Of a DNA stretch of 52,184 nucleotides, positions 22,772 through 49,145 are shown piece after piece. The position numbers and the translations under genes are program-made. Positions within the stretch are counted from its first letter, which is position 1. Every line of letters starts with the position of its first letter. Below the pieces are notes generated by a model. It was not told the origin of the DNA. It worked only from the letters and a program-made list of their open reading frames with translations, and ran no database searches. The stretch is from a virus: positions 1 through 52,184 of IMG/VR virus record IMGVR_UViG_3300030012_002628, one strand, 5' to 3'.

Positions 22772-25700
22772 ATGTCAGACCCAAGCGAAACCAAACCGAC
22801 AGGCTCATTTAACCCAACGCCATACGATATATGGGCCACTCAAAATTCCTTTGAAAATGAATTAGAGGGGAGGACTAAACACCTAGATCATCTCCGCTTA
22901 GAGTATATCAAAGCAGGGAAGTATGATGAGGAAATGGAAGGTCTTTTCCAAGAAGAGTTTGAAAACTCTTTGATCGACAATAAAATATTAGACCCCCTCA
23001 ACGAAGCAGAAGTTGGTGAAGCTGTTCTAAGTTTTTCAGGTGTTCTCCCTTCTAATGATAAAGACGTTCTTTTTATTAAGGACAACATGGCTGAAGGAAG
23101 TTCAATTATGGACTTTGAAGAAGGGGAACAGGAAAAAATTCTACGATATGCAAAAGCTTTAGAGACAGGACAGGAGATACCTGAAGACATTAATGTTAAC
23201 GAAGTTCATGAAATTGCTCGTCAAAAAAGACAGAACTTCATTACAGAATTATACGAAAACGATCAGCTAGGGGCAGGTGTTTATTACACTAAAGAAGGAC
23301 AGCGTATTTTTCTTGGTGGGAAAATTGACGAGAATTCTACGGAAGCGGATGTCCTTGAGCAAGGTAGAGATTTCGGTGTAGTCCCTAGAGATGTTTTTAC
23401 TCTAAGAAAATTTAAAGAAGTCCAAGCAGATAAGAATGGCTTGGAGTTTTATCAAGTAGATCAAAGGCAGAGGGCAGAACAAAAAATTCTTCCTTTTCTA
23501 GACCCTAAAGATGATCTCAGAGATGAAAAGATTAGAGCACGGTTTGATGCTCTCGCTACTAGCTTGGGGAAAGAGAAGTCTTGGGGTATGCTCCGCAAAG
23601 GCTTTGATTCTACTGGTGAAGTATTAACTTGGGCAGGATCAAATATAAGAGAGGGTTGGAACTGGTTGACTTTTGATGAGGAAGAAAAGAAAGAGTCTGA
23701 GGATTACCAAAGATATGAGGCTTTGCGGGAAGAATATGAGGATGAGGTAGAAGAAACAAGACAAGAACTTATAGCAGAATTATCTGAGAGAACGGGTATC
23801 CGTGGAGAAGTCTTAGAAGATGTTGTTGATGATATGGTTGTAGAGATTGCAGCCAATGGATCAGAAACTTTAGACCCTACTCTTATCTTTACGGATGATG
23901 AAGATGATCTAAAACAAAATGTTATTCGAAGAAACTACAAGGGGACTTTTGTTCAACCAGCTATGGCTCTCAAGCCAGAGATGTTTAGAAAAGCTCTTAA
24001 ACAGTCTGGATTTAGTGAGGAAGAAATTGAGATAGAGGACACAAAAAGACAGGCGGAAAACGAATTGTTAGCTTCCACTCGCAGTAAAATTTTAAGGGAA
24101 GACGAGAATTATCAAGACAAGTTTGAAGCTGCTGAATTGGATGGAAGACAAGCAGGGCTTACTCAAGCAGAGATACTTGAGAAATTTGTAAAGGAAGAAG
24201 ATCCCAACTTGGGGTTGGCGGGTATTGGTCAAAGTATTGGGCAAAGTTTTTCTACTCTATTTTACGGGGTGGGTGCTTTGTTTGGTTCGGAGTATGGAAA
24301 AGAAGGACTCCTACAGAATGCCAAAGACCAAGCTCATCTAAATCAGATGAGAGAAATCTTTGGTCAAGATGCAGGAATGGGGCAACAAATATTAGAGCAG
24401 GTTGCCCCACTTATAGTTGATGGTGCGATTACCTTTACGGCAGGGCTTCTTGCCGTTCCTTCAGGTGGAACTTCGGTAGCTGCAGCAGCGGGTTACTTCA
24501 CGGCAAAAACAAGTGCGACTGCCACAGCTAGAGCGGTATTGAAAAATACTTTTAACACTGCTTTGAAGCAGCAAATCAAACGAGATGCTTCAGGTAAGCT
24601 AATCAAAGAAACCACAGGACAAGCTGTAAAGAGATTACAGGCAGCAGGAACATTAAAAGGTTTGTCTAACCGTGAAATGATTTCTGCGGTTAAAAACTAC
24701 AACAGTAAACTAGCTAAGTCACTGGGAATTGGAACGGCTACGTTTGTTCCCGCAGCCATGCGTTCAGGTAGTATGACGTATGGTGCTGTCTACAAAACTA
24801 TAACTGATGACTTTACAAATAAGTATCAAGTTAATGGTGAATGGGTAGAGGGTTGGAGTGAAGAAAGGGTAAAAGAAGAAGCCCACAAAGCAGGTTTTGA
24901 GGCGATGATAACTGCGGGTACAACTACAGGTCTTATAACCGCTGCAATGGGTAAGATAGGTAACGGTATGTTCGGGGGTGTTGAGAATGCGTTCCTTGCA
25001 GGAGTCAGCCTTAAACAACTAAAAGTAGCTACCGATAGAATGGTGAGTCGAGTCTCTTCAGACGAGGCTTTCTTAAAGGCGATGACCGATGCTGTTGCAT
25101 CAACAATGAAAACAGGTTTGATCGGTACATCAATGCGAATAGGTAAGAGTGGTATTGGTGAAGGAATAGAAGAAGGTATTGATGAATTTGCGAACACAAT
25201 CATCCAAGACGCTTGGACAGACAAAGATACTTCTTTCTTAGAAAAAGCAACGGGTGCTTGGCATGGTGCTAAGATGGGTTTCTTTTTAGGAGCTGGTGCT
25301 CCCGCTATCAGTAAGGGTGTAAAAAACTTAGCTCCTGTAAGGGGGGTAGATGCTCAAGCTATGCAAGAAGCAGAGCAAACAGTTGATACTGAGTTCAGGA
25401 AATTGTTAAAAGCATCGGGTGATCTAGAGCGTTTTGAAGAACTAGAAGCGACAGCTCCTAACACTCATGCGGAGGTTATTAGGCAAGTTAGAGCTAAGTA
25501 CGCAAAAGAAGAAGAGGCTGAGACTGAGACAGCTCCAGACCCTGAAGAAGCGAAACCAACTGAACAGGAAGTTGCAGAAGAAGCAGAGCAGCTAAAGAGA
25601 GATCTTGAGGCAAATCAAAAAGAAGATGACAACCAAAAGATCATCAATGATTCTAAAGAAGAGGGAAGAACTAAAGCCGAATCCTCTCCTATAGTCACGG

Positions 25701-28700
25701 CTAGTGAGGCTGTTAATAGCGTTACCGAAACCGACACTAATCAGGCTTCCGCTAATGCTGATGTCACCAACAGCAATCCATCTGCTAGGCCCCCAAGAAC
25801 TCCTCAACAGAAGTATCAAGACACAGTCAATGACATAGAAGTTTTAGAAAGAAGATACAACGTACAGATGGCAGCTCTTGAAGAGCTTCCGCCAGAGTTA
25901 CGAGACAAGAGGCGAAACGAAATTGAAGCAGCAGTAAAAGCTGGTCGTATGCTTGACCCAGACACAGCAGGTGAACTTATTGCTCAAGCAAACAAAGACA
26001 GGGAAAAAGAAATAGCGGAAGAAGCTAAACCTGCCAAGGTAACAAAGAAAGATTTAGATAAGTTAGAAGAGGTAATTGAACAAGGATTCCCAGTTGCTGA
26101 TATTAAAAATCACCTAGAACAATTGGGTCTTAACCTCGAAAGAACAGATGAGAAATATCTTCGAGCTGTAGAAAAAGTAATCAAAGAACGGATTGCCGAA
26201 AGATACCCGACATTAAACCCCAAAAGACAACAAGGTGGGGTAAGACTACCAAACACTTTAGCTCCTTCGGGGACAGTCGTAATTGATAAAGACGGGCGGG
26301 GTGTATTTAATAATGATCCTGCAGGGATGCTTACTTTGTTGCAAAACAATGTTGCTATTCCTTTAACTGAAGATCAAGCGACGAACCCTAATTTAAACAA
26401 ATCATTTGTAGTAGAACAAATAGGAACTGATTACTTTGTTTCCGATATCATGATCCCTGTAAAAGGAGGACTGGTCTCGGCTAAGACTCCAGTAACAAAG
26501 ATCGCGGTTCACGAAACAAATTACACACCAGTTAAGGACAAGATAAGAAGAGTAAACACTCTTAAAAACACGGTAGATTTAAATGATGTCAAAGACATTA
26601 AGATCGTAAGCCCGTTCCGTGTTGCTTCAGGAAAGAAGCCGACAAAGATAAGTTTGGGTGAGCTTCTCGTAGAGGCTAAAAATTTACCAGCACTTAGAAA
26701 GTTTTTAGCTCAAGATTCTATACCTACTTTAAGTAAAGATTATTTAGACGCTGCTGCTATAACGATGAGTTTAGATCTGCAAGAGCAGATTTATAACCAA
26801 GCCAAATCTCTCTCCCAAACTCAACCTACCACCTCATTAAAGAAGGAGGAGAATGCACTAGCCTTTGTAAGAGAGGAATATGGATCACTATATCCTGAGT
26901 TGATAAAGGATAAGTCGATATCAGAGATTATAAATATAGGTAATGAGGTTGATGCAGGGGCAGTTCCTTTTGAGAATCTTAGTAAAGAACAAAGAGGAGC
27001 ACTCGAAATAAGAAACGCATACCTTAGATTGACTGAGCAAAGTCCATCTTTTGTTTTAAATTTAGAAACATCTGCTATCAAGAATGCTAGTTTCTTTAAC
27101 AAGGTAGAATCAGAAAGGAACTCAAAATCTATTCGTGATGTAGCCACTCTAATTGATCCCGATTCAGATATTCATAAGCGTCCAGACTTGATGGATGCAG
27201 AGAAGCAAAAAGAAGATCACTTTATCCCCCCCGCTGTTACAACGATCCCACCTATTGCGGAATCAAAACTAGCTGCTTTTATCTCTTCCAAAATTGATGA
27301 CGTAGCAACCGCGATTAGGTTAGATAGCCGTCTCCGAAGAGATGTAAAAGATCTGCTTAACAATGAGTATCATAATGGGAAGAAGGTAGCCACCAAATAT
27401 TCAGCAGAACAAGTAGCCGTAGAGCTTGTTCATTTCTTAGCTTCAAGGGGTGGAACAAATAAACCAGCATCAGTTCTAGAACAGAAACTCAGTAGCCGTA
27501 ATCTGGATGTCATTAACCCTGAATATAAGTTAGGGCAGGACATGAAAGATGCTCTTACTTTGTTGGGTGTTACCAGTCCTTCATTGCAGGGTTCGTTAAA
27601 TACCGATGCTTCCTTCTACACTTTAATAGAGTCTCAACTACAAGGATTAGTTGGGCCAGATGTCATGCTTTCGTATGGGGATGTTAAGGCTTTCTATACG
27701 CAAGTTAGAAAAGGAGCTGCTGCTTACAAGAAGAGAGCGATAAATGACGGACGCAGCAGAAGAAAGATCATCAAAGATAACCTCGAAGAGATAGATGAGT
27801 TAGGATTGCGAGATGATGATCCTCAATCTGTAATTGATGCTCTCGAAGAGATTGCTGAGTCAGGTGTTAAACCACTTAGGGTTTTAGCAAAAGCTCTACT
27901 TCGGAATAAAGACTTCATACGCTCAATAAAATTCGTCATAGACGGCACTCCTGCGGACTTTTCGGGGCTATATTATGTTGATGGTAACGGGAATAGAACT
28001 GTACTAATTAATACAAATAGGTCTGGAGCAAGAGGTGTAGCGGATACTTTAATCCACGAGTATCTCCATGCGTTTACTAATGACATTCTCAATGCACCAC
28101 CAGAAAGTAGAACACCTGCTCAGAATGAAGCAATTGCCAACCTTGAAGAGATACTGAGGCTCGCAAAAGAGAAAGCCCGTAAGTCTGGTAAAGCTAACTT
28201 AGAATATGGTACTTCAAACCTAGATGAGTTCTTAACTCATATATTAACTGATCCTCAGTTCCAAAGATTTCTCAATGGCATCATACCTGCGAAGGGTAAA
28301 CTCAACCTCTTCCAAAAAGCTATTGATGCTTTAGCTAAATTGATTCCTTTCGTTAAGAGGAAAGAATTAAAAATAGCTCTTGGGCAAGCACTTGATCTTA
28401 CTCAAAGGGCAGATATCCCACAGCCCTCAACTAAATCAGGGTTTGCGAGTCAGGTTGCAGGAAGCATTCACAGGGGTCAGTCTGAACTCCACGATATGTC
28501 TAAGGACATGGGCATGGCAGAGCAATCAGCCATCAACGAAAAGTTGGAGGAAAGGGCTAAAGAAGTTATTGAGTTTGCTATGGGTTATGTCCCAAGCGAA
28601 CTCAACATCGTTGTTGATGAAGCAAACCCAGAGATTGCTAGTGTTGATAGCACTACAGGAGCTATCGTTTTAAATCCAAAAAGAGCAGCACTCTACTTAG

Positions 28701-31700
28701 CCGAGCAAGGGGCAGATGGGATGGATGCTCAAAGGAGACAACACGCCCTTGGAATTATTATAAATAAAGCAGTCGGTAGAGCAGCAGCAGATGCGATGAT
28801 TACTGATGCTCAGTATGCAGACATAACTAAGTCCATGACGGACTCAGAATTCGAGGCAGAGATTAGAGAAAACTATCCCTTGGATCAGCAAGAAGCAGCT
28901 TTTCAAAGACTTAGAAGTTCCGACCCAGAGGTCTCTGCTACAGAGAGGTTCGACTTAGCAAAGAAAGCGATTGCTAGGCACACAGAGCTGTCCACTACGG
29001 GATCAACAACAGCTCAACAGATTGCTTTCCTTAGAACGAATCCTTCTTTGATTCCTCTATTCATAACTTACATGAAAGCCTTCCTCAGTAAACTCACATA
29101 TCACAGGACATTGAAAGATGTTTCTCCTGAGATGAGGAAAGCAGTTAATAATACTGTAAGAGAGATCAGGGCTTTGTCTCTGAACTACAGGCCCGCTGAC
29201 AGTATCATGACCCACAATCCTCGCAACCCTTATGCAGTTGTGGAGCAACTTATGCAGCAAGCTATTGATACTAATATGCTAGAGCCGACTGCTAAAACTG
29301 ATAGTGCTAGTTTACGAAATAGATTAATAGAACAAACCTCTCCTACCCCTGTTGTTTTAGGACAAGAGAGTGAGGCTCCTACCCCCGATACACCCTCTCA
29401 ATTTAGTCAAGACTCTAAGATTCCTTCTTTCCTCAACGAAGTTGAGATGCAAGAAAAGGATATTAATAACTGGCTTGAGGTGCTTGATGTCCCTCTGACT
29501 GAGTTCAGTGAAGACTACGAGTTTGATAAGATGGGCAAGATACGAAGAGGGTTATACAAAACCTTTGTGCGTAAAGCTGACAAAAGAGTTGTTAACTTCT
29601 ACGACCAGAACAAAGCCTTTGTTAGGGAGACAAAAGGTCTCGTTGAAAAGCTGCAACAGAAGCACAACAGAATACTTAAAAGAGAAAACGAAAGACTCAG
29701 CACTGTAACAGGACAAGAAACAGGGAACATCCCTGCCGAACTTATAGCTAGAGCTTCAGGAACTAACGAGGGATCAAACTTAACAGAACCTCAAAAAGAT
29801 ATTGTTGATGCAGAGTATAATGCAGCTATCGCTGAAGCTAATAGAAAGTCGGGTGCTGAAAAAGATGACGCACTTGCTCTGGCTCAGATTAAGAAAGATA
29901 AAAAGATTTTAGAACTACGGGAAAAGAATCGTAAACAACAGTTCGCTAGGAGAGATGCAGCTCTTGATGATTTGTTAAAGATATCTCCCGATATGTACAA
30001 CCTCGTTTTAGAAATGAGGCAACTTCAAGATCAGCTCTCAAAGAAGGCGATGGAAATCTTCGGGCCTACTATGAAAGAAGGAGATTTGAAGATGGCTTTT
30101 GATTTCAACAGAGGTCTGTACCTGACTAGGTCATATAGAATGTTTGAAGACCGTAACTTTGCCAAACAAGTTAAAGAGTCTGATGAATATGCGGATGTTC
30201 GTGAACGAGCAGCAGCTTACTTCTTTGAGCAATTGAAGAAACAAAGAGTTCAGCAGTTGCAGGATACTGAAGCTCTAACTAAAGAGCAAGCTGAAGCTAA
30301 AGTGAGGGATGAAATGGTTGCTAAAAATACTAAAATGCAATCACAAGCCTCCGCTATGGTGGACGATTTCATCGACGGATATGCACGGGCGGAAGCCAAA
30401 AAGAAGTTTGAGCAATCGCAACGAACATTCGGGGAGCAGGATTTAGTGTTACAGGATGCAGGATTCAGTGAAACCGATCCCCTTAAAAAGATTGTCGAAT
30501 CAATCAATGATAAGAAAAACATACCTGAACCCATCAGGGAATTACTCGGAGAGTATGGAGAAGACACAGGCATTTATAATCTCAGCTACTCTCTGAACCA
30601 CACAGCTAGTTTACTTTCTAATCAGGCGTTCTTTAATAAACTCAAAGCATTAGGGACTGGCGTTAATCCAGAGACTGGGGAAGTCGAATCTGATAATCCT
30701 TGGATGGTTAGTTCAGAACAATATTTTGAAGACAGAGCGAGACCAAAAGCAGATAGAAAATATTCTGGTTGGGTAGAGCTAGTTGATCTAAGTAGTGAAA
30801 CTAATCCCCTAGCAGGGATGTATGTCCCAGAACAAGTGGCCTCCAACATAACAGATCTTTTGGGTGGCAAGAAGAAAGCGGACATCACAGATCCACTGAA
30901 TGAACGGGCAGAATTGCAGGGGAAAATAATGCGAGGAACTAAAAAAGCGGTGGGTCTATCCCTTGCTTACAAGACGCTTGGGTCTCCTGCTTTCTACATA
31001 AGAAACATAATTGGTAACGCTTTGTTCTTCGGGCCTATGCAAGGGTATCCTGCTCATAGAGTTATGGGAGATCTCTTCAAGGATGTTAAAGGAGCTAATG
31101 TTCCTTACCTTACTAAAAACCCTGACTCTATTTTCTACCAAGTAGGGGGGTCAGAGTTGAGTTTCAAACTAATGGAACTTAGATCTAGAAATGTTTACGG
31201 TGATGAGCTTGAAGTTTCACAACTCCAAGACCTGTTGGAGGGAAAGACATCCTACGCAAGTTTGCAAAAGGATCTGGATAAAGTAGCAGCAGCCTCTAAT
31301 TTTATTGCGGGTCTTAATAAGAAGAAAGGGCCTATCAAAGTTCCAGAGGAACATATCGAAACCTTGGCAAAGTTGGGGGTCAATGTGACTTCAGCGGGGC
31401 TTCTTCCATTCAAAGCAATTAAAGAAGCGAACGCAATACTTCTACAAACAGGTGGAAAACTTGCTTCTGCTGCTGATGGTTTCTTCAAAGTTGGTCTCTA
31501 TGATTTCGAGATGCAGACTTTAACTAAAGCTGCAAAGCACGAGATAGAAAAGGGTGAGATTAACGGAAAGTATGCAAAGCTCTTAGATGAGAATGGGGAA
31601 CCTACTAACACCATGAAGGACATGGCTGCGAATATCGTAAAAGATACAGCTCAGTCATACAGTAGGGCCTTACCGATTATCAAAGATTTAACAGATAGTA

Positions 31701-32833
31701 ACATCGCAATTGCCATCGCTCCTTACGTTCGATTCGCAGCAGATATCCCAAGAGTTTTTGTTAACGGAATCTTTAGAGGAGCTAAAGAAGTTGCGAGTGA
31801 TAACCCCGAAATTGCGAAGAGAGGACGTAGGCGGATGAGGGGATTAATCACAACAACAACACTTAACATCGGCCTTACTAAAGGAACCCAGATGCTTCTT
31901 TGGGGAATAGATGACGAAGACGAAGCCAAAGCATTCCGTTCAATGGTTCCTAAATGGATGAAAGATGCGGGTATTCTTGTATGGAGAGATGATGATGGGG
32001 CAACATGGTCAATTGATATGACTTACCTAAATCCGTTTGCCATCATCCAAGATCCTGCTGTTAGAGCTTTTGAAATGTTAATGAGAGGAGAGGGAGCTGG
32101 AAAGGCTTCACTCGAATTCATGAAACTATTCTTAAAGCCTTACTACAGTGAGCAAATTTTAACGGGGGCTATGGTTGATGCCTTCACAAATGAAGACCAA
32201 TATGGTAGACCAATCGTATTGGATGGAGAGGAGGACTGGCTCAGTAGAAAAGCTAGTTACGTCTTTGAGAAAGCATTTTCTCCTAGATCTCTCATGTCTG
32301 CTGATCAGGCGTATGATGCTTTCCTGTCCAAAGAATCAACAGGGAACTTCTTTGATACAGCTTTCGGTCACTTGATGAAATCGATAGTCCCATTTCGAGC
32401 GCACAAACAAGATTTCGTAACTGGATTTAATAGATTCCTGATTGCACATCAGGAGAACTACAGGAACAACAACAATATGTTTAGTAACAAAGTGGGGCAG
32501 CAAGGAATTCTATCAGACAAGGCTTTGTATAAAGCCTATGATAGATACTACAACAGTAGGATGCTCTCAAACAATGAGTTCAAACAAATTGTAAGAGGCT
32601 TTGAAAAGCTAGGGCTTGATCAAGGACAGATCGAACGCCTAGCTAAATCAAAAGGGGTAAGCAAAGAAAGACTACAGCTAAACCGCCAAGGTTATATGAA
32701 CCGCCCTATATTATCTAAGCCTCTTGAGAGAAGGTTGGTGGAAGAAAACCCTAACGGGTTGAGTAGGCTAAGAAAGCTAAGGGCGTATATAGAAAAAAAG
32801 AACACAGAACCATACATCAACATAGATAAATGA
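22772..32833 (+). CDS. Giant polyvalent virion protein with zinc metallopeptidase domain
   Basis: 3353 residues, about one fifth of the window. Order: acidic N-terminal region (1-480); hydrophobic glycine/alanine-rich segments near 481-505, 545-570, 707-730 and 832-850; an acidic, Thr/Pro/Asn-rich linker (about 905-1025); mixed domains; a peptidase domain with IHEYLHAF (H1762, E1763, H1766) and likely third ligand E1819 in LDEFLTHIL; a similar domain near 1942-2010 lacking HExxH; coiled coils (2180-2460); further hydrophobic segments near 2736, 2976 and 3024 with a WSIDMTYLNPF region. This build matches large polyvalent proteins that travel inside the head and are ejected with DNA. RNA polymerase motifs were looked for and not seen. 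ATGA overlap with the next gene. Confidence 0.75.
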   Translation: MSDPSETKPTGSFNPTPYDIWATQNSFENELEGRTKHLDHLRLEYIKAGKYDEEMEGLFQEEFENSLIDNKILDPLNEAEVGEAVLSFSGVLPSNDKDVLFIKDNMAEGSSIMDFEEGEQEKILRYAKALETGQEIPEDINVNEVHEIARQKRQNFITELYENDQLGAGVYYTKEGQRIFLGGKIDENSTEADVLEQGRDFGVVPRDVFTLRKFKEVQADKNGLEFYQVDQRQRAEQKILPFLDPKDDLRDEKIRARFDALATSLGKEKSWGMLRKGFDSTGEVLTWAGSNIREGWNWLTFDEEEKKESEDYQRYEALREEYEDEVEETRQELIAELSERTGIRGEVLEDVVDDMVVEIAANGSETLDPTLIFTDDEDDLKQNVIRRNYKGTFVQPAMALKPEMFRKALKQSGFSEEEIEIEDTKRQAENELLASTRSKILREDENYQDKFEAAELDGRQAGLTQAEILEKFVKEEDPNLGLAGIGQSIGQSFSTLFYGVGALFGSEYGKEGLLQNAKDQAHLNQMREIFGQDAGMGQQILEQVAPLIVDGAITFTAGLLAVPSGGTSVAAAAGYFTAKTSATATARAVLKNTFNTALKQQIKRDASGKLIKETTGQAVKRLQAAGTLKGLSNREMISAVKNYNSKLAKSLGIGTATFVPAAMRSGSMTYGAVYKTITDDFTNKYQVNGEWVEGWSEERVKEEAHKAGFEAMITAGTTTGLITAAMGKIGNGMFGGVENAFLAGVSLKQLKVATDRMVSRVSSDEAFLKAMTDAVASTMKTGLIGTSMRIGKSGIGEGIEEGIDEFANTIIQDAWTDKDTSFLEKATGAWHGAKMGFFLGAGAPAISKGVKNLAPVRGVDAQAMQEAEQTVDTEFRKLLKASGDLERFEELEATAPNTHAEVIRQVRAKYAKEEEAETETAPDPEEAKPTEQEVAEEAEQLKRDLEANQKEDDNQKIINDSKEEGRTKAESSPIVTASEAVNSVTETDTNQASANADVTNSNPSARPPRTPQQKYQDTVNDIEVLERRYNVQMAALEELPPELRDKRRNEIEAAVKAGRMLDPDTAGELIAQANKDREKEIAEEAKPAKVTKKDLDKLEEVIEQGFPVADIKNHLEQLGLNLERTDEKYLRAVEKVIKERIAERYPTLNPKRQQGGVRLPNTLAPSGTVVIDKDGRGVFNNDPAGMLTLLQNNVAIPLTEDQATNPNLNKSFVVEQIGTDYFVSDIMIPVKGGLVSAKTPVTKIAVHETNYTPVKDKIRRVNTLKNTVDLNDVKDIKIVSPFRVASGKKPTKISLGELLVEAKNLPALRKFLAQDSIPTLSKDYLDAAAITMSLDLQEQIYNQAKSLSQTQPTTSLKKEENALAFVREEYGSLYPELIKDKSISEIINIGNEVDAGAVPFENLSKEQRGALEIRNAYLRLTEQSPSFVLNLETSAIKNASFFNKVESERNSKSIRDVATLIDPDSDIHKRPDLMDAEKQKEDHFIPPAVTTIPPIAESKLAAFISSKIDDVATAIRLDSRLRRDVKDLLNNEYHNGKKVATKYSAEQVAVELVHFLASRGGTNKPASVLEQKLSSRNLDVINPEYKLGQDMKDALTLLGVTSPSLQGSLNTDASFYTLIESQLQGLVGPDVMLSYGDVKAFYTQVRKGAAAYKKRAINDGRSRRKIIKDNLEEIDELGLRDDDPQSVIDALEEIAESGVKPLRVLAKALLRNKDFIRSIKFVIDGTPADFSGLYYVDGNGNRTVLINTNRSGARGVADTLIHEYLHAFTNDILNAPPESRTPAQNEAIANLEEILRLAKEKARKSGKANLEYGTSNLDEFLTHILTDPQFQRFLNGIIPAKGKLNLFQKAIDALAKLIPFVKRKELKIALGQALDLTQRADIPQPSTKSGFASQVAGSIHRGQSELHDMSKDMGMAEQSAINEKLEERAKEVIEFAMGYVPSELNIVVDEANPEIASVDSTTGAIVLNPKRAALYLAEQGADGMDAQRRQHALGIIINKAVGRAAADAMITDAQYADITKSMTDSEFEAEIRENYPLDQQEAAFQRLRSSDPEVSATERFDLAKKAIARHTELSTTGSTTAQQIAFLRTNPSLIPLFITYMKAFLSKLTYHRTLKDVSPEMRKAVNNTVREIRALSLNYRPADSIMTHNPRNPYAVVEQLMQQAIDTNMLEPTAKTDSASLRNRLIEQTSPTPVVLGQESEAPTPDTPSQFSQDSKIPSFLNEVEMQEKDINNWLEVLDVPLTEFSEDYEFDKMGKIRRGLYKTFVRKADKRVVNFYDQNKAFVRETKGLVEKLQQKHNRILKRENERLSTVTGQETGNIPAELIARASGTNEGSNLTEPQKDIVDAEYNAAIAEANRKSGAEKDDALALAQIKKDKKILELREKNRKQQFARRDAALDDLLKISPDMYNLVLEMRQLQDQLSKKAMEIFGPTMKEGDLKMAFDFNRGLYLTRSYRMFEDRNFAKQVKESDEYADVRERAAAYFFEQLKKQRVQQLQDTEALTKEQAEAKVRDEMVAKNTKMQSQASAMVDDFIDGYARAEAKKKFEQSQRTFGEQDLVLQDAGFSETDPLKKIVESINDKKNIPEPIRELLGEYGEDTGIYNLSYSLNHTASLLSNQAFFNKLKALGTGVNPETGEVESDNPWMVSSEQYFEDRARPKADRKYSGWVELVDLSSETNPLAGMYVPEQVASNITDLLGGKKKADITDPLNERAELQGKIMRGTKKAVGLSLAYKTLGSPAFYIRNIIGNALFFGPMQGYPAHRVMGDLFKDVKGANVPYLTKNPDSIFYQVGGSELSFKLMELRSRNVYGDELEVSQLQDLLEGKTSYASLQKDLDKVAAASNFIAGLNKKKGPIKVPEEHIETLAKLGVNVTSAGLLPFKAIKEANAILLQTGGKLASAADGFFKVGLYDFEMQTLTKAAKHEIEKGEINGKYAKLLDENGEPTNTMKDMAANIVKDTAQSYSRALPIIKDLTDSNIAIAIAPYVRFAADIPRVFVNGIFRGAKEVASDNPEIAKRGRRRMRGLITTTTLNIGLTKGTQMLLWGIDDEDEAKAFRSMVPKWMKDAGILVWRDDDGATWSIDMTYLNPFAIIQDPAVRAFEMLMRGEGAGKASLEFMKLFLKPYYSEQILTGAMVDAFTNEDQYGRPIVLDGEEDWLSRKASYVFEKAFSPRSLMSADQAYDAFLSKESTGNFFDTAFGHLMKSIVPFRAHKQDFVTGFNRFLIAHQENYRNNNNMFSNKVGQQGILSDKALYKAYDRYYNSRMLSNNEFKQIVRGFEKLGLDQGQIERLAKSKGVSKERLQLNRQGYMNRPILSKPLERRLVEENPNGLSRLRKLRAYIEKKNTEPYINIDK

Positions 32834-40266: not shown

Positions 40267-41235
40267 TTAGGATTCAGGAATCCATTCCTGCAAGGGGCAT
40301 CCAAGAATATGCTCACAAGCTCTTTGAGCTTTGCCCCCTGCAATCAAGAGCATTTTAGGATCGTCTTTTAATTTAGAAATCCATCCTTTCACATATGCTG
40401 CACTGTTGTTCTGTTCATCTTCTCCCCAACATCCTGTAATTAGTGCGAGCATTGCAGCGCCTAATTCAGCGACAAGTTCCTCCCTTGAATAGCTTTGAGT
40501 TCCAAAGCCTTTAATATCTGTAATCTCTTTTCTGGCCAATCTCTTTTCATGGCCTGTTGAATGAACCAATTCATGGAATAAAGTTTTATAAAAAGACTCC
40601 GAATTTTTCCATTGTTCCATTAAGGGCATTTCAACAAGGTCTCTTGACGGGGAATAACAAGGGCTTTGACCGTCTCTTTTTAGCTTCATTTCAAGGGCGG
40701 GCGGGTTTTCGAAATTAGTCCAAACTTGCTCAGCTCTTGCAATTGCCTGATTTTTGCGCTCGGTCTCGGTCAATTCAGGGGCGGGGGCTTCATCGGGAAA
40801 GTCAATTCCTTCGATTTGTTCGGCATTCCAAACAACGAATTTTGACACGTAAAAGACTTTGGAATGAATGGCGGGGTTTTCTTTGCCTTTAGAAACGGGC
40901 TTGCCGTTTTCATCTTTCCACGCAATTCCCCATTTCAAACACTTTGTACCCTTTTCACCTTTTCTTACTTTGCCCCCTAATTTCTTGATCCCGCCCCATG
41001 GCAACCAATATCTTGAACTATAGCCTTGCATCAAGAGGATGAAGATATTCCCGCCCTCGTATTCTTTGCCCGTGTCAAAGTTCATCGGAATTGCAAAGAC
41101 TGAACCGATGTTCTTACTTGAACCGATCCATTTTTTAGACCATGGAACAAGGTTTTTATCTTGCATTTTATCTGTGATGATTTCCATCACTTCATCTTGC
41201 GGGGAACTTTTTTTTGCTTTGGTTGCTGTATTCAT
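40267..41235 (-). CDS. ardC: ArdC-type protein: ssDNA-binding domain plus zinc metallopeptidase
   Basis: 322 residues. The N-terminal domain (about 10-140: VPWSKKW, YEGGNIFILLM, RYWLPWGG, VRKGEKG) is the ArdC/TraC-primase type ssDNA-binding domain. The C-terminal part carries LFHELVHSTGH (HELVH at 221-225) and likely third ligand E257 in EELVAELGA, a zincin. ArdC proteins on plasmids and phages protect incoming DNA from restriction. As the first gene of the early block it fits a counter-defence role (inference). The start codon follows seven A. Confidence 0.82.
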   Translation of the reverse strand: MNTATKAKKSSPQDEVMEIITDKMQDKNLVPWSKKWIGSSKNIGSVFAIPMNFDTGKEYEGGNIFILLMQGYSSRYWLPWGGIKKLGGKVRKGEKGTKCLKWGIAWKDENGKPVSKGKENPAIHSKVFYVSKFVVWNAEQIEGIDFPDEAPAPELTETERKNQAIARAEQVWTNFENPPALEMKLKRDGQSPCYSPSRDLVEMPLMEQWKNSESFYKTLFHELVHSTGHEKRLARKEITDIKGFGTQSYSREELVAELGAAMLALITGCWGEDEQNNSAAYVKGWISKLKDDPKMLLIAGGKAQRACEHILGCPLQEWIPES

Positions 41236-47483: not shown

Positions 47484-47512
47484 TTGACAACTATAGATAT
47501 TTAAATTATTCT
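47484..47512 (+). promoter_or_regulatory. Strong promoter of the major capsid gene
   Basis: TTGACA (47484-47489), 17-base spacer, TATTCT (47507-47512), predicting a start near 47519 and a leader of about 200 bases. The spacer carries ACAACTATAGATAT, identical to one arm region of the palindrome at 42915-42943. Confidence 0.72.
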
Positions 47513-47524
47513 AAGTTTATAGTC

Positions 47525-47564
47525 ACAGTTGGTTGCTCTAGCCATAAATAGTTCTATTACCTGT
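47525..47564 (+). ncRNA. Structured leader element, copy 1
   Basis: Outer stem ACAG (47525-47528) with CTGT (47561-47564). Inner hairpin TGGTT (47530-47534), loop GCTCT, AGCCA (47540-47544). Then a linker TAAATAGTTCTAT. Copy 2 has the same loop and nearly the same linker, with different but still paired stem bases. Confidence 0.6.
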
Positions 47565-47596
47565 TTCTATACCAGATCGAGCTGAGTCTCATCGAA

Positions 47597-47642
47597 CAAA
47601 CCGTTAGGTTGCTCTAACCTTAACTAGTTCTATCGCGGTTTG
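47597..47642 (+). ncRNA. Structured leader element, copy 2
   Basis: Outer stem CAAACCG (47597-47603) with CGGTTTG (47636-47642). Inner hairpin AGGTT (47606-47610), loop GCTCT, AACCT (47616-47620). Linker TAACTAGTTCTAT. The copies start 72 bases apart. The gap between copy 2 and the ATG (47643-47715) contains a T9 tract flanked by CCCA and GGGG. Confidence 0.62.
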
Positions 47643-47715
47643 CCTAAGACAATTTAGCAAGTCCCACTTTTTTTTGGGGCTTAAATCTATTAACAAAACT
47701 TAACTATTATTTATT

Positions 47716-49089
47716 ATGGCTAGAAATGCAGTAGCGGGCGATTTCGCATCAGCGAGTAATGTCGCCATTAATACTATCCTCGCAGAGGAAGCAAATCGTA
47801 TTGGAGCTGATGTGCATACACGTATGATGCACACATCTCCTTGGATCGATCTTGTTAAAAAATCAACATTCCCAGAGGGAATGGGATATCAACTCACTAC
47901 TCTTATTTATGATCGTAGTCTCCCGACTACTGATGTCACAGGTAATGCAGTGGGTGTAAACTGGAACAACATCGCAACACTTCAAACTGGAGCAAGCGCA
48001 CTCGGAACATCAGTATTGGATCAGCCTCTTGATACTACAGCCGACAATGTGCAAGCTGCTAACGGAGGAGCCACCAACACAGCAGGAGACAGTCTTTCTG
48101 GTCTTGGTGGAACTGATGCTCGTAACTTTGTAAACTTCGGTAAGAAGCTCAAAGCATACAGCATTCAGCGTGCGATCATCGAATCACCCCGTATCAATGT
48201 TGACGATCTTCGTTATGCAGCACATCGTCAGGAGCAGCTTCGCGCTATCCTTGATAGTCTTGCAGAGTCTACTCGTCATTCATGGGCCGAGCGTTATCGT
48301 GATGAGTATGACCGTCTTGTAGATAACACTGTTATCTGCCGTGGTGATGCGACTAACGATGCTGGAAACCCAACTGAGTTCCTTGCTTCCAACGAAGGTC
48401 AGACTACTGATGCCCTTGGTGCAGCAGGAGGAGATCTCGACGGTGGTGGGGCATCTAAAGTTAAGAGTGACATTTCTAATGCCGTTCTTGATAAGATCTA
48501 CTTCAAGATGATCCGTGGTGGAGCATCAGCAGATGCGTATGGCCGTGAGAATGGCCGTCCAGTATTTGCACTTGTTTGCTCTTCTGAGGCATCAAACACC
48601 ATCATGAAAGAAGATGGGTTCCGTGACGATATTCGTTACAACAACGCTCGCGTTGGCGACCTTATCGCTCCACTTGGTGTTGAGAAGTCCTTCCGTGGTT
48701 TCTACCACTTGATCGACGATCTTGCACCTCGTTACAAAGATGGAAATGAAGGAGATCTTGTCCGTGTTGAGCCTTACACAAGCTCAAACGGTATTGCTAC
48801 TCCTAACGCTGAATATGACAATGCAGCTTATGAGGTTGCTTACGTTCTTCACCCATCAGTGTATGAGTCCCAGATTCCTGCACCATTCGGTGGAGCTAAC
48901 GGAGTGACCTTCAGCCCAGTTGATTATTCTGGTGAGTTCAAGTGGACTAACATCCTTAGTGAGACAACTAACCCAGACGGCACAATCGGATTCTTCCGTG
49001 GAATCCTCGCTGCTGCTTCCAAGCCAATTAAGACTGAGCTTGGTTACGCTATTGTTTACAAGCGTACTGGACTTCCAGCGAAGGTATAA
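47716..49089 (+). CDS. Major capsid protein
   Basis: 457 residues, no signal or membrane segment. It follows the scaffold, has its own strong promoter and long leader, and is followed by a terminator. Codon usage is biased to CGT, GGT, CTT and AAC, more than its neighbours, as expected for the most abundant protein. The N-terminal arm, a long helix (LRYAAHRQEQLRAILDSLAE, about 156-175) and beta-rich C-terminus fit an HK97-fold capsid, although the fold cannot be proven by eye. A TATTAT sits just before the ATG. Confidence 0.85.
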   Translation: MARNAVAGDFASASNVAINTILAEEANRIGADVHTRMMHTSPWIDLVKKSTFPEGMGYQLTTLIYDRSLPTTDVTGNAVGVNWNNIATLQTGASALGTSVLDQPLDTTADNVQAANGGATNTAGDSLSGLGGTDARNFVNFGKKLKAYSIQRAIIESPRINVDDLRYAAHRQEQLRAILDSLAESTRHSWAERYRDEYDRLVDNTVICRGDATNDAGNPTEFLASNEGQTTDALGAAGGDLDGGGASKVKSDISNAVLDKIYFKMIRGGASADAYGRENGRPVFALVCSSEASNTIMKEDGFRDDIRYNNARVGDLIAPLGVEKSFRGFYHLIDDLAPRYKDGNEGDLVRVEPYTSSNGIATPNAEYDNAAYEVAYVLHPSVYESQIPAPFGGANGVTFSPVDYSGEFKWTNILSETTNPDGTIGFFRGILAAASKPIKTELGYAIVYKRTGLPAKV

Positions 49090-49109: not shown

Positions 49110-49145
49110 AGCGGGGGTGGCGGTCTACGGATCTCTGCCCCCGCT
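49110..49145 (+). terminator. Intrinsic terminator after the major capsid gene
   Basis: AGCGGGGG (49110-49117) pairs with CCCCCGCT (49138-49145), a perfect 8-base stem with a 20-base loop, followed by TTACTTAT. The T-run is weak, so partial read-through into the next gene is likely. Confidence 0.65.

Follow-up and report, generated by a model that had tools for sequence, protein, structure and literature searches.

The leader of a probable major capsid protein (MCP) gene in a 52,184-base virus contig from IMG/VR (the window, by which the whole stretch of DNA analysed is meant) contains two tandem copies of a structured RNA element, each of which is, from comparison of related sequences, almost certainly an H-type pseudoknot in which an outer stem, P1, encloses a short hairpin, P2, whose loop pairs with the linker on its 3' side. 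The element matches no known RNA family, and the phage group that carries it in twin copies is large and almost uncharacterised. The original prediction had recognised a tandem structured element before the capsid gene; its reading omitted the pseudoknot, the confinement of the element to a single gene and the fact that P1 stands where the mRNA is predicted to begin.

The probable capsid gene and its predicted transcript

The window encodes a terminase, a family A DNA polymerase and tail-fibre proteins. It also contains an open frame of 3353 amino acids (22772-32833) that has no Pfam match and is of a size reminiscent of the N4-like virion RNA polymerase, and, on the minus strand at 40267-41235, an ArdC-like antirestriction protein with an MPTase-PolyVal domain. 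INPHARED gave no match either to the capsid and terminase proteins of the window and of one related locus (L078) or to the leader DNA, and no isolated relative of these phages was found among 50,697 phage records. Assignment of the host to Blastopirellula or Acidimicrobiaceae was not trusted, the sole two matches in genome collections being metagenome bins so labelled.

The features of the leader and of the gene behind it are as follows.

47484-47512, plus strand: sigma-70-type promoter TTGACA-17-TATTCT (10 of 12 matches), with its predicted +1 at about 47519
47518-47571, plus strand: element copy 1, scoring 50.3 bits against a model whose alignment includes this copy
47579-47590, plus strand: small hairpin GAGCUGAGUCUC between the copies, of the form GRGCUNNGUYYC in many, not all, relatives
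47597-47642, plus strand: element copy 2, scoring 43.0 bits against a model whose alignment includes this copy
47659-47682, plus strand: third leader hairpin AAGUCCCA/UGGGGCUU, common but not universal at the same place in relatives
47683-47715, plus strand: A+U-rich, weakly structured stretch before the start codon, without a Shine-Dalgarno sequence and containing UUAACUAUUA
47716-49089, plus strand: probable MCP gene, 457 amino acids, the sole gene found behind the element
49110-49145, plus strand: strong G+C hairpin with a weak T tract, 3' of the capsid gene, read by eye

Searches of PHROGs and Pfam with the capsid protein and its neighbours mostly returned no matches, and no PHROG family was a good one. 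The AlphaFold2 model of the 457-residue protein is weak (pLDDT 51), and the PDB entries that it resembles most are for the most part HK97-fold phage capsid proteins, with an E-value of 0.004 for the first match (all above 0.001). On this modelled structure the product is probably a divergent major capsid protein.

The promoter that had been proposed for the leader, which is about 200 nt long, is present in the window, and a TTGAC promoter with a spacing of 16-18 nt occurs at the corresponding place in most of 72 relatives. The first pair of P1 lies at a median of 0.5 nt from +1 (middle half -1 to 5, n=38, all starts being predicted); in the window the predicted transcript begins at P1 of copy 1, its start lying upstream of both copies rather than downstream of 47642. 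The G+C hairpin behind the gene is a possible terminator of the capsid unit and is absent from the terminator-like sites reported by the terminator tool. A heuristic search placed terminators upstream of the promoter and leader in 21 of 65 loci and just downstream of the MCP gene in 17 of 65, and because leader and gene are flanked in this way the MCP gene seems, in many of these phages, to form a transcription unit of its own; the same kind of search placed a possible terminator between copy 2 and the ATG in 5 of 65 loci. In four loci (L012, L013, L014 and L027) the -35 box TTGACA lies inside the terminator stem-loop of the upstream gene, terminator and promoter overlapping.

A Shine-Dalgarno match of at least four bases occurs in 0 of 100 MCP leaders, and such sequences are few (14%) in the other genes of these phages, suggesting a host in which initiation is mostly Shine-Dalgarno-independent. 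The MCP start region in relatives is A+U-rich and mostly weakly structured. In 37 of 143 loci the heptamer UUAACUU occurs no more than 45 nt from the MCP start, where about 2 such loci would be expected under mononucleotide shuffling, uncorrected for relatedness; it is sometimes repeated (CUUAACUUAACUUAACUU), occurs in the window at 47683-47715 and in relatives such as L082 and L087, and brings to mind the UUAA(A) repeats of T4 gene 32 and the T7 gene 10 leader.

Structure and covariation of the element

The two copies are found where they had been placed, as 27-nt cores at 47531-47557 and 47607-47633 that are 89% identical and 76 nt apart, and a 28-base pattern allowing up to three mismatches matches the window only at these two places (0.00 matches expected from shuffles). 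The outer stems are as described originally: in copy 1, ACAG (47525-47528) pairs with CUGU (47561-47564), extended by UAUAG (47518-47522) with CUAUA (47567-47571), and in copy 2, CAAACCG (47597-47603) pairs with CGGUUUG (47636-47642). Within P1, the P2 stem joins GGU (47531-47533) to GCC (47541-47543) in copy 1 and GGU (47607-47609) to ACC (47617-47619) in copy 2. The first loop, L1, is UGCU (47534-47537 and 47610-47613), and it is followed by the pseudoknot, in which CUA (47538-47540 and 47614-47616) pairs with UAG (47549-47551 and 47625-47627), and then by the conserved UUCUA (47552-47556 and 47628-47632). An inner hairpin had thus been correctly perceived, but it has a stem of only 3-4 bp instead of the proposed five-base stem closed by a GCTCT loop, and the A that follows GCTCT, formerly assigned to the stem, is the last loop base (A47540, A47616) and is paired with the linker instead, as covariation indicates.

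The first covariance model, R1, had a poor RNAalifold structure and was hence used only as a sequence finder. The single-sequence folding energies of copies 1 and 2 are not significant (z of -0.13 and -1.03), and, since single copies thus have no thermodynamic support, the case for the fold rests on comparative data. Across 78 non-redundant elements, which as related sequences are non-independent, the flanks that form P1 have a mean energy of -9.4 kcal/mol, compared with -4.48 (sd 0.24) for permuted partners; the sequence of P1 is free while its pairing is kept, and 71 of 712 P1 pairs are G.U. The P2 stem, in contrast to P1, is nearly fixed as GGU/GCC in the main group, with a U.G wobble as the third pair in 72 of 77 elements, a conservation that would suit RNA better than DNA. 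The unpaired conserved bases are the UGCU of the first loop and the UUCUA after the pseudoknot, and the element has about 20 conserved bases in total.

The third pair of the pseudoknot could be scored in 68 main-group elements, where it is AU in 57, GC in 8, CG in 1, UA in 1 and another combination in 1. A variant scan was made in which the third pseudoknot base was C, G or T with any partner, or A with a partner other than T, and in which the preceding GG was waived. All 11 of its matches in MCP leaders are Watson-Crick (9 G-C, 1 C-G, 1 U-A), while matches outside MCP leaders show mixed, chance-like pairs; since several of the 11 variants come from contigs seen earlier, this is a completeness check as much as a prediction. 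The view that the structure is a selected RNA is upheld by P1 pairing far above that of permuted partners and by this covariation of the pseudoknot, and homologous leaders keep the pairing.

Two further patterns were seen among the elements. In L018 (2322-2348 and 2387-2414), and also in L020 and L035, the loop changes from GCUCU to GUUCU together with a change of the linker from AGUUC to AGUCC, and this coupled swap of C/U to U/C, which is present in both copies, suggests that L1 and the UUCUA strand are in tertiary contact. UUCAG replaces UUCUA in copy 1 only (6 of 42 first copies and 0 of 35 second copies among the elements tabulated); first copies with UUCAG are those of L005, L048, L066, L069, L082, L107, L139, L140 and L142.

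Distribution and diverged leaders

Relatives were sought with the downstream protein, which gave L001 and L002, with the repeat, which gave L003-L005, and with an alignment of six proteins, which gave 80 loci. A gene-blind scan of 2.9 million viral contigs with the pattern GGTTGCTCTAGCCN{1,8}TAGTTCTA matched 75 places. In all 68 loci with a readable downstream gene, a relative of the same gene starts 52-226 nt downstream of the element, and in the remaining 7 the contig ends within 224 nt past the element, which is too short to tell; no convincing copy was seen away from MCP leaders. A second copy lies close by in nearly all matched loci, sometimes with a few mismatches, and 74 distinct tandem pairs with copies 25-63 nt apart were collected, in support of the tandem arrangement in cis to the probable capsid gene that was first seen in the window. 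The element is kept across capsids down to about 50% identity. Restriction to a single gene family is what is expected of autogenous protein-binding leaders, and such exclusivity, kept over so deep a divergence, speaks for a partner that is passed on together with the capsid gene.

At the gathering cut-off no Rfam 15 family matches the window or nine related loci, and at a relaxed threshold (E up to 10) the leader gave three sub-threshold matches only. No capsid-leader RNA of this kind was located in the part of the literature that was covered. The earlier statement that the element is of no recognised class thus agrees with the searches of Rfam, INPHARED and the literature.

MCP leaders without a sequence match to the element were searched with a descriptor specifying P1, a P2 of 3-5 bp, the loop, a pseudoknot of 3-4 bp, and UUCUA or CGCUA. 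The descriptor recovers the fold in 10 of 12 such diverged leaders, against 0.22 expected from shuffled leaders; two of the twelve (L012 and L019) are near the main group and have a first copy of the known kind. The pseudoknots of the diverged leaders are CUGU/ACAG, CCG/CGG, CCGU/ACGG, UUGC/GCAA, CCA/UGG, CUG/CAG, UCGG/CCGA, CAGU/ACUG and CACU/AGUG, and P2 also varies (GUCC/GGAC, GACC/GGUC, UGGC/GCCA), while the constant parts are GCU in the first loop (GC in two leaders) and UUCUA or CGCUA past the pseudoknot. On the protein tree the diverged form occupies two lineages and the tandem form all others, and the leader form changes twice on this tree, compared with 12 changes in shuffles, which indicates that the leader is inherited with the gene.

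The diverged relatives have a recognised single copy, which lies further from the promoter. When a plain 5'-terminal hairpin was sought in their leaders as a stand-in for copy 1, the predicted start fell inside the hairpin. Another conserved structure is seen upstream of the MCP start in five leaders (L030, L041, L044, L064 and L080), where a small hairpin is preceded by GAAGC and the hairpin after it has GCUUC in its loop; pairing of these two motifs could give a second pseudoknot.

Possible roles of the leader

The leader with its twin elements is, we infer, very probably regulatory and acts on the amount of capsid protein. The reading tentatively preferred here, although its probability falls well short of even, is that a phage protein docks on the leader and so sets the level of MCP synthesis. 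A protein inherited with the capsid module would recognise a surface made by the conserved unpaired bases; the simplest candidates are the capsid protein itself, the scaffold or another phage RNA-binding protein. The two copies would allow cooperative or two-site binding. Binding would alter the yield of capsid protein from the largely autonomous transcription unit, most likely as negative feedback upon the build-up of unassembled capsid subunits, and its effect would pass through the downstream A+U-rich unstructured start region in the manner of T4 gene 32.

Several points count against docking. To our knowledge, no HK97-type capsid protein binds an mRNA leader; the elements lie 52-226 nt from the start codon and do not overlap it; and the exclusivity of the element could instead reflect the capsid as the most demanded product. 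The more specific and more doubtful form of the proposal is that, throughout a widespread group of tailed phages, the capsid protein or scaffold binds the tandem pseudoknot of its own leader in autogenous feedback; we know of no such capsid thermostat at the mRNA level in double-stranded DNA phages. Ribosomal-protein leaders are tied to one gene family by autogenous regulation and have conserved unpaired bases, and the present element resembles them in its restriction to one gene family and in its conserved unpaired bases, but, unlike a ribosomal protein, a capsid protein has no known RNA target for the leader to mimic.

In its working, the nearest known system by analogy would be the T4-type gene 32 leader, in which a pseudoknot nucleates protein binding that spreads over the A+U-rich initiation region (PMC3014915), and which a 2010 review singled out as perhaps the sole case of a viral pseudoknot that serves to autoregulate translation (PMC3014915). 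The leaders of T4, T2 and RB69 gene 32 likewise combine a tailed-phage mRNA, an H-type leader pseudoknot and a single gene; the pseudoknot lies some 67 nt ahead of the start codon and is followed, as here, by an A+U-rich initiation region (PMC3014915). The product of gene 32 is a single-strand-binding protein with its own leader as a target, whereas the gene here encodes a capsid-like protein, and the gene 32 leader has one copy with no enclosing P1 described, whereas the present element is tandem with P1; no shared sequence was noted. In architecture the nearest system is STAXI (RF01728), a pseudoknot of unknown function found two to three times in tandem near genes of DNA-handling and antirestriction proteins (PMC2864571). 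The STAXI model gave no match at E up to 10 in the record of the window, and neither its UUCG loops nor its DNA-handling gene neighbours are seen for the element here.

The strongest rival, to which a somewhat lower probability is given than to docking, is a protective leader that acts independently of any protein: P1 of copy 1 would keep pyrophosphohydrolase and 5'-end-dependent nucleases away from the 5' terminus of the mRNA, and road-blocks would be formed by the tandem pseudoknots, giving a long-lived capsid message. The coincidence of the first P1 pair with the predicted +1 and the resemblance of the MCP gene to an autonomous unit both speak for this reading, as do the stabilisation of bacterial mRNA by 5'-terminal structure (PMC3997798) and the ability of the flaviviral xrRNAs, also compact pseudoknots in two tandem copies in an untranslated region, to stop bacterial RNase J1 in vitro (PMC5760640). 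However, a plain hairpin needs no conserved loop bases in order to protect, a general-purpose stabiliser should also be met in front of other genes, the single copy recognised in diverged relatives is further from the promoter, and all of the start sites are predictions. The flaviviral RNAs, moreover, form a ring around the 5' end and act in a 3' untranslated region, whereas the present element is in a 5' leader and the 3' strand of its pseudoknot lies inside P1, between P2 and the 3' strand of P1, so that no such ring is evident from the secondary structure. Ranking protein docking first and protection second is a best guess, with no firm separation of the two.

It is unlikely that the leader is a translation enhancer for a host that does not depend on Shine-Dalgarno sequences, recruiting or positioning the 30S subunit or S1 near the start; the absence of Shine-Dalgarno matches from MCP leaders and the A+U-rich, weakly structured start region would suit such a role, but the other genes of the same phages mostly lack these sequences as well and manage without the element. 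Still less probable is that the element senses a small molecule or ion as a riboswitch does, with two copies for a steeper response. The compact pseudoknot with conserved unpaired bases would be appropriate to a sensor, and tandem aptamers occur in some riboswitches, but the element precedes one gene only and never a metabolic or transport gene, no Rfam riboswitch matches it, and, of the expression platforms considered, a possible terminator follows copy 2, ahead of the start codon, in just the few loci counted above, while start-codon sequestration would have no Shine-Dalgarno sequence to hide.

A self-cleaving ribozyme, or an antiterminator that modifies RNA polymerase near the promoter in the manner of the HK022 PUT elements, is improbable. 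A small pseudoknotted fold with this number of conserved bases would be compatible with the former, and known Rfam ribozymes are unmatched; PUT elements are phage RNA structures that likewise stand two in a row near a promoter, but they act on RNA polymerase in early operons, whereas the element here serves a mostly autonomous capsid gene, and the gene layout, with a terminator-like hairpin directly after the MCP gene in at least 17 of 65 loci, shows no evident need for the read-through of terminators. That the element acts as DNA, as a tandem operator or a cruciform, is very improbable: its inverted repeats could form in DNA and lie just downstream of a promoter, but the U.G pair of P2, the G.U pairs of P1, the pseudoknot, the fixed orientation and the invariable position inside the predicted transcript all argue against it.

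Discussion of capsid yield in tailed phages usually centres on promoters and protein ratios. The present work adds a well-supported structured RNA, with a covarying pseudoknot, before the probable capsid gene of a phage group for which the 50,697 phage records yielded no isolated relative, and the maintenance of a dedicated leader RNA across capsids with only about 50% identity implies a level of control that has yet to be described. As a compact tandem pseudoknot, the element also provides a test case for road-blocks in bacterial messages like those of eukaryotic viruses.
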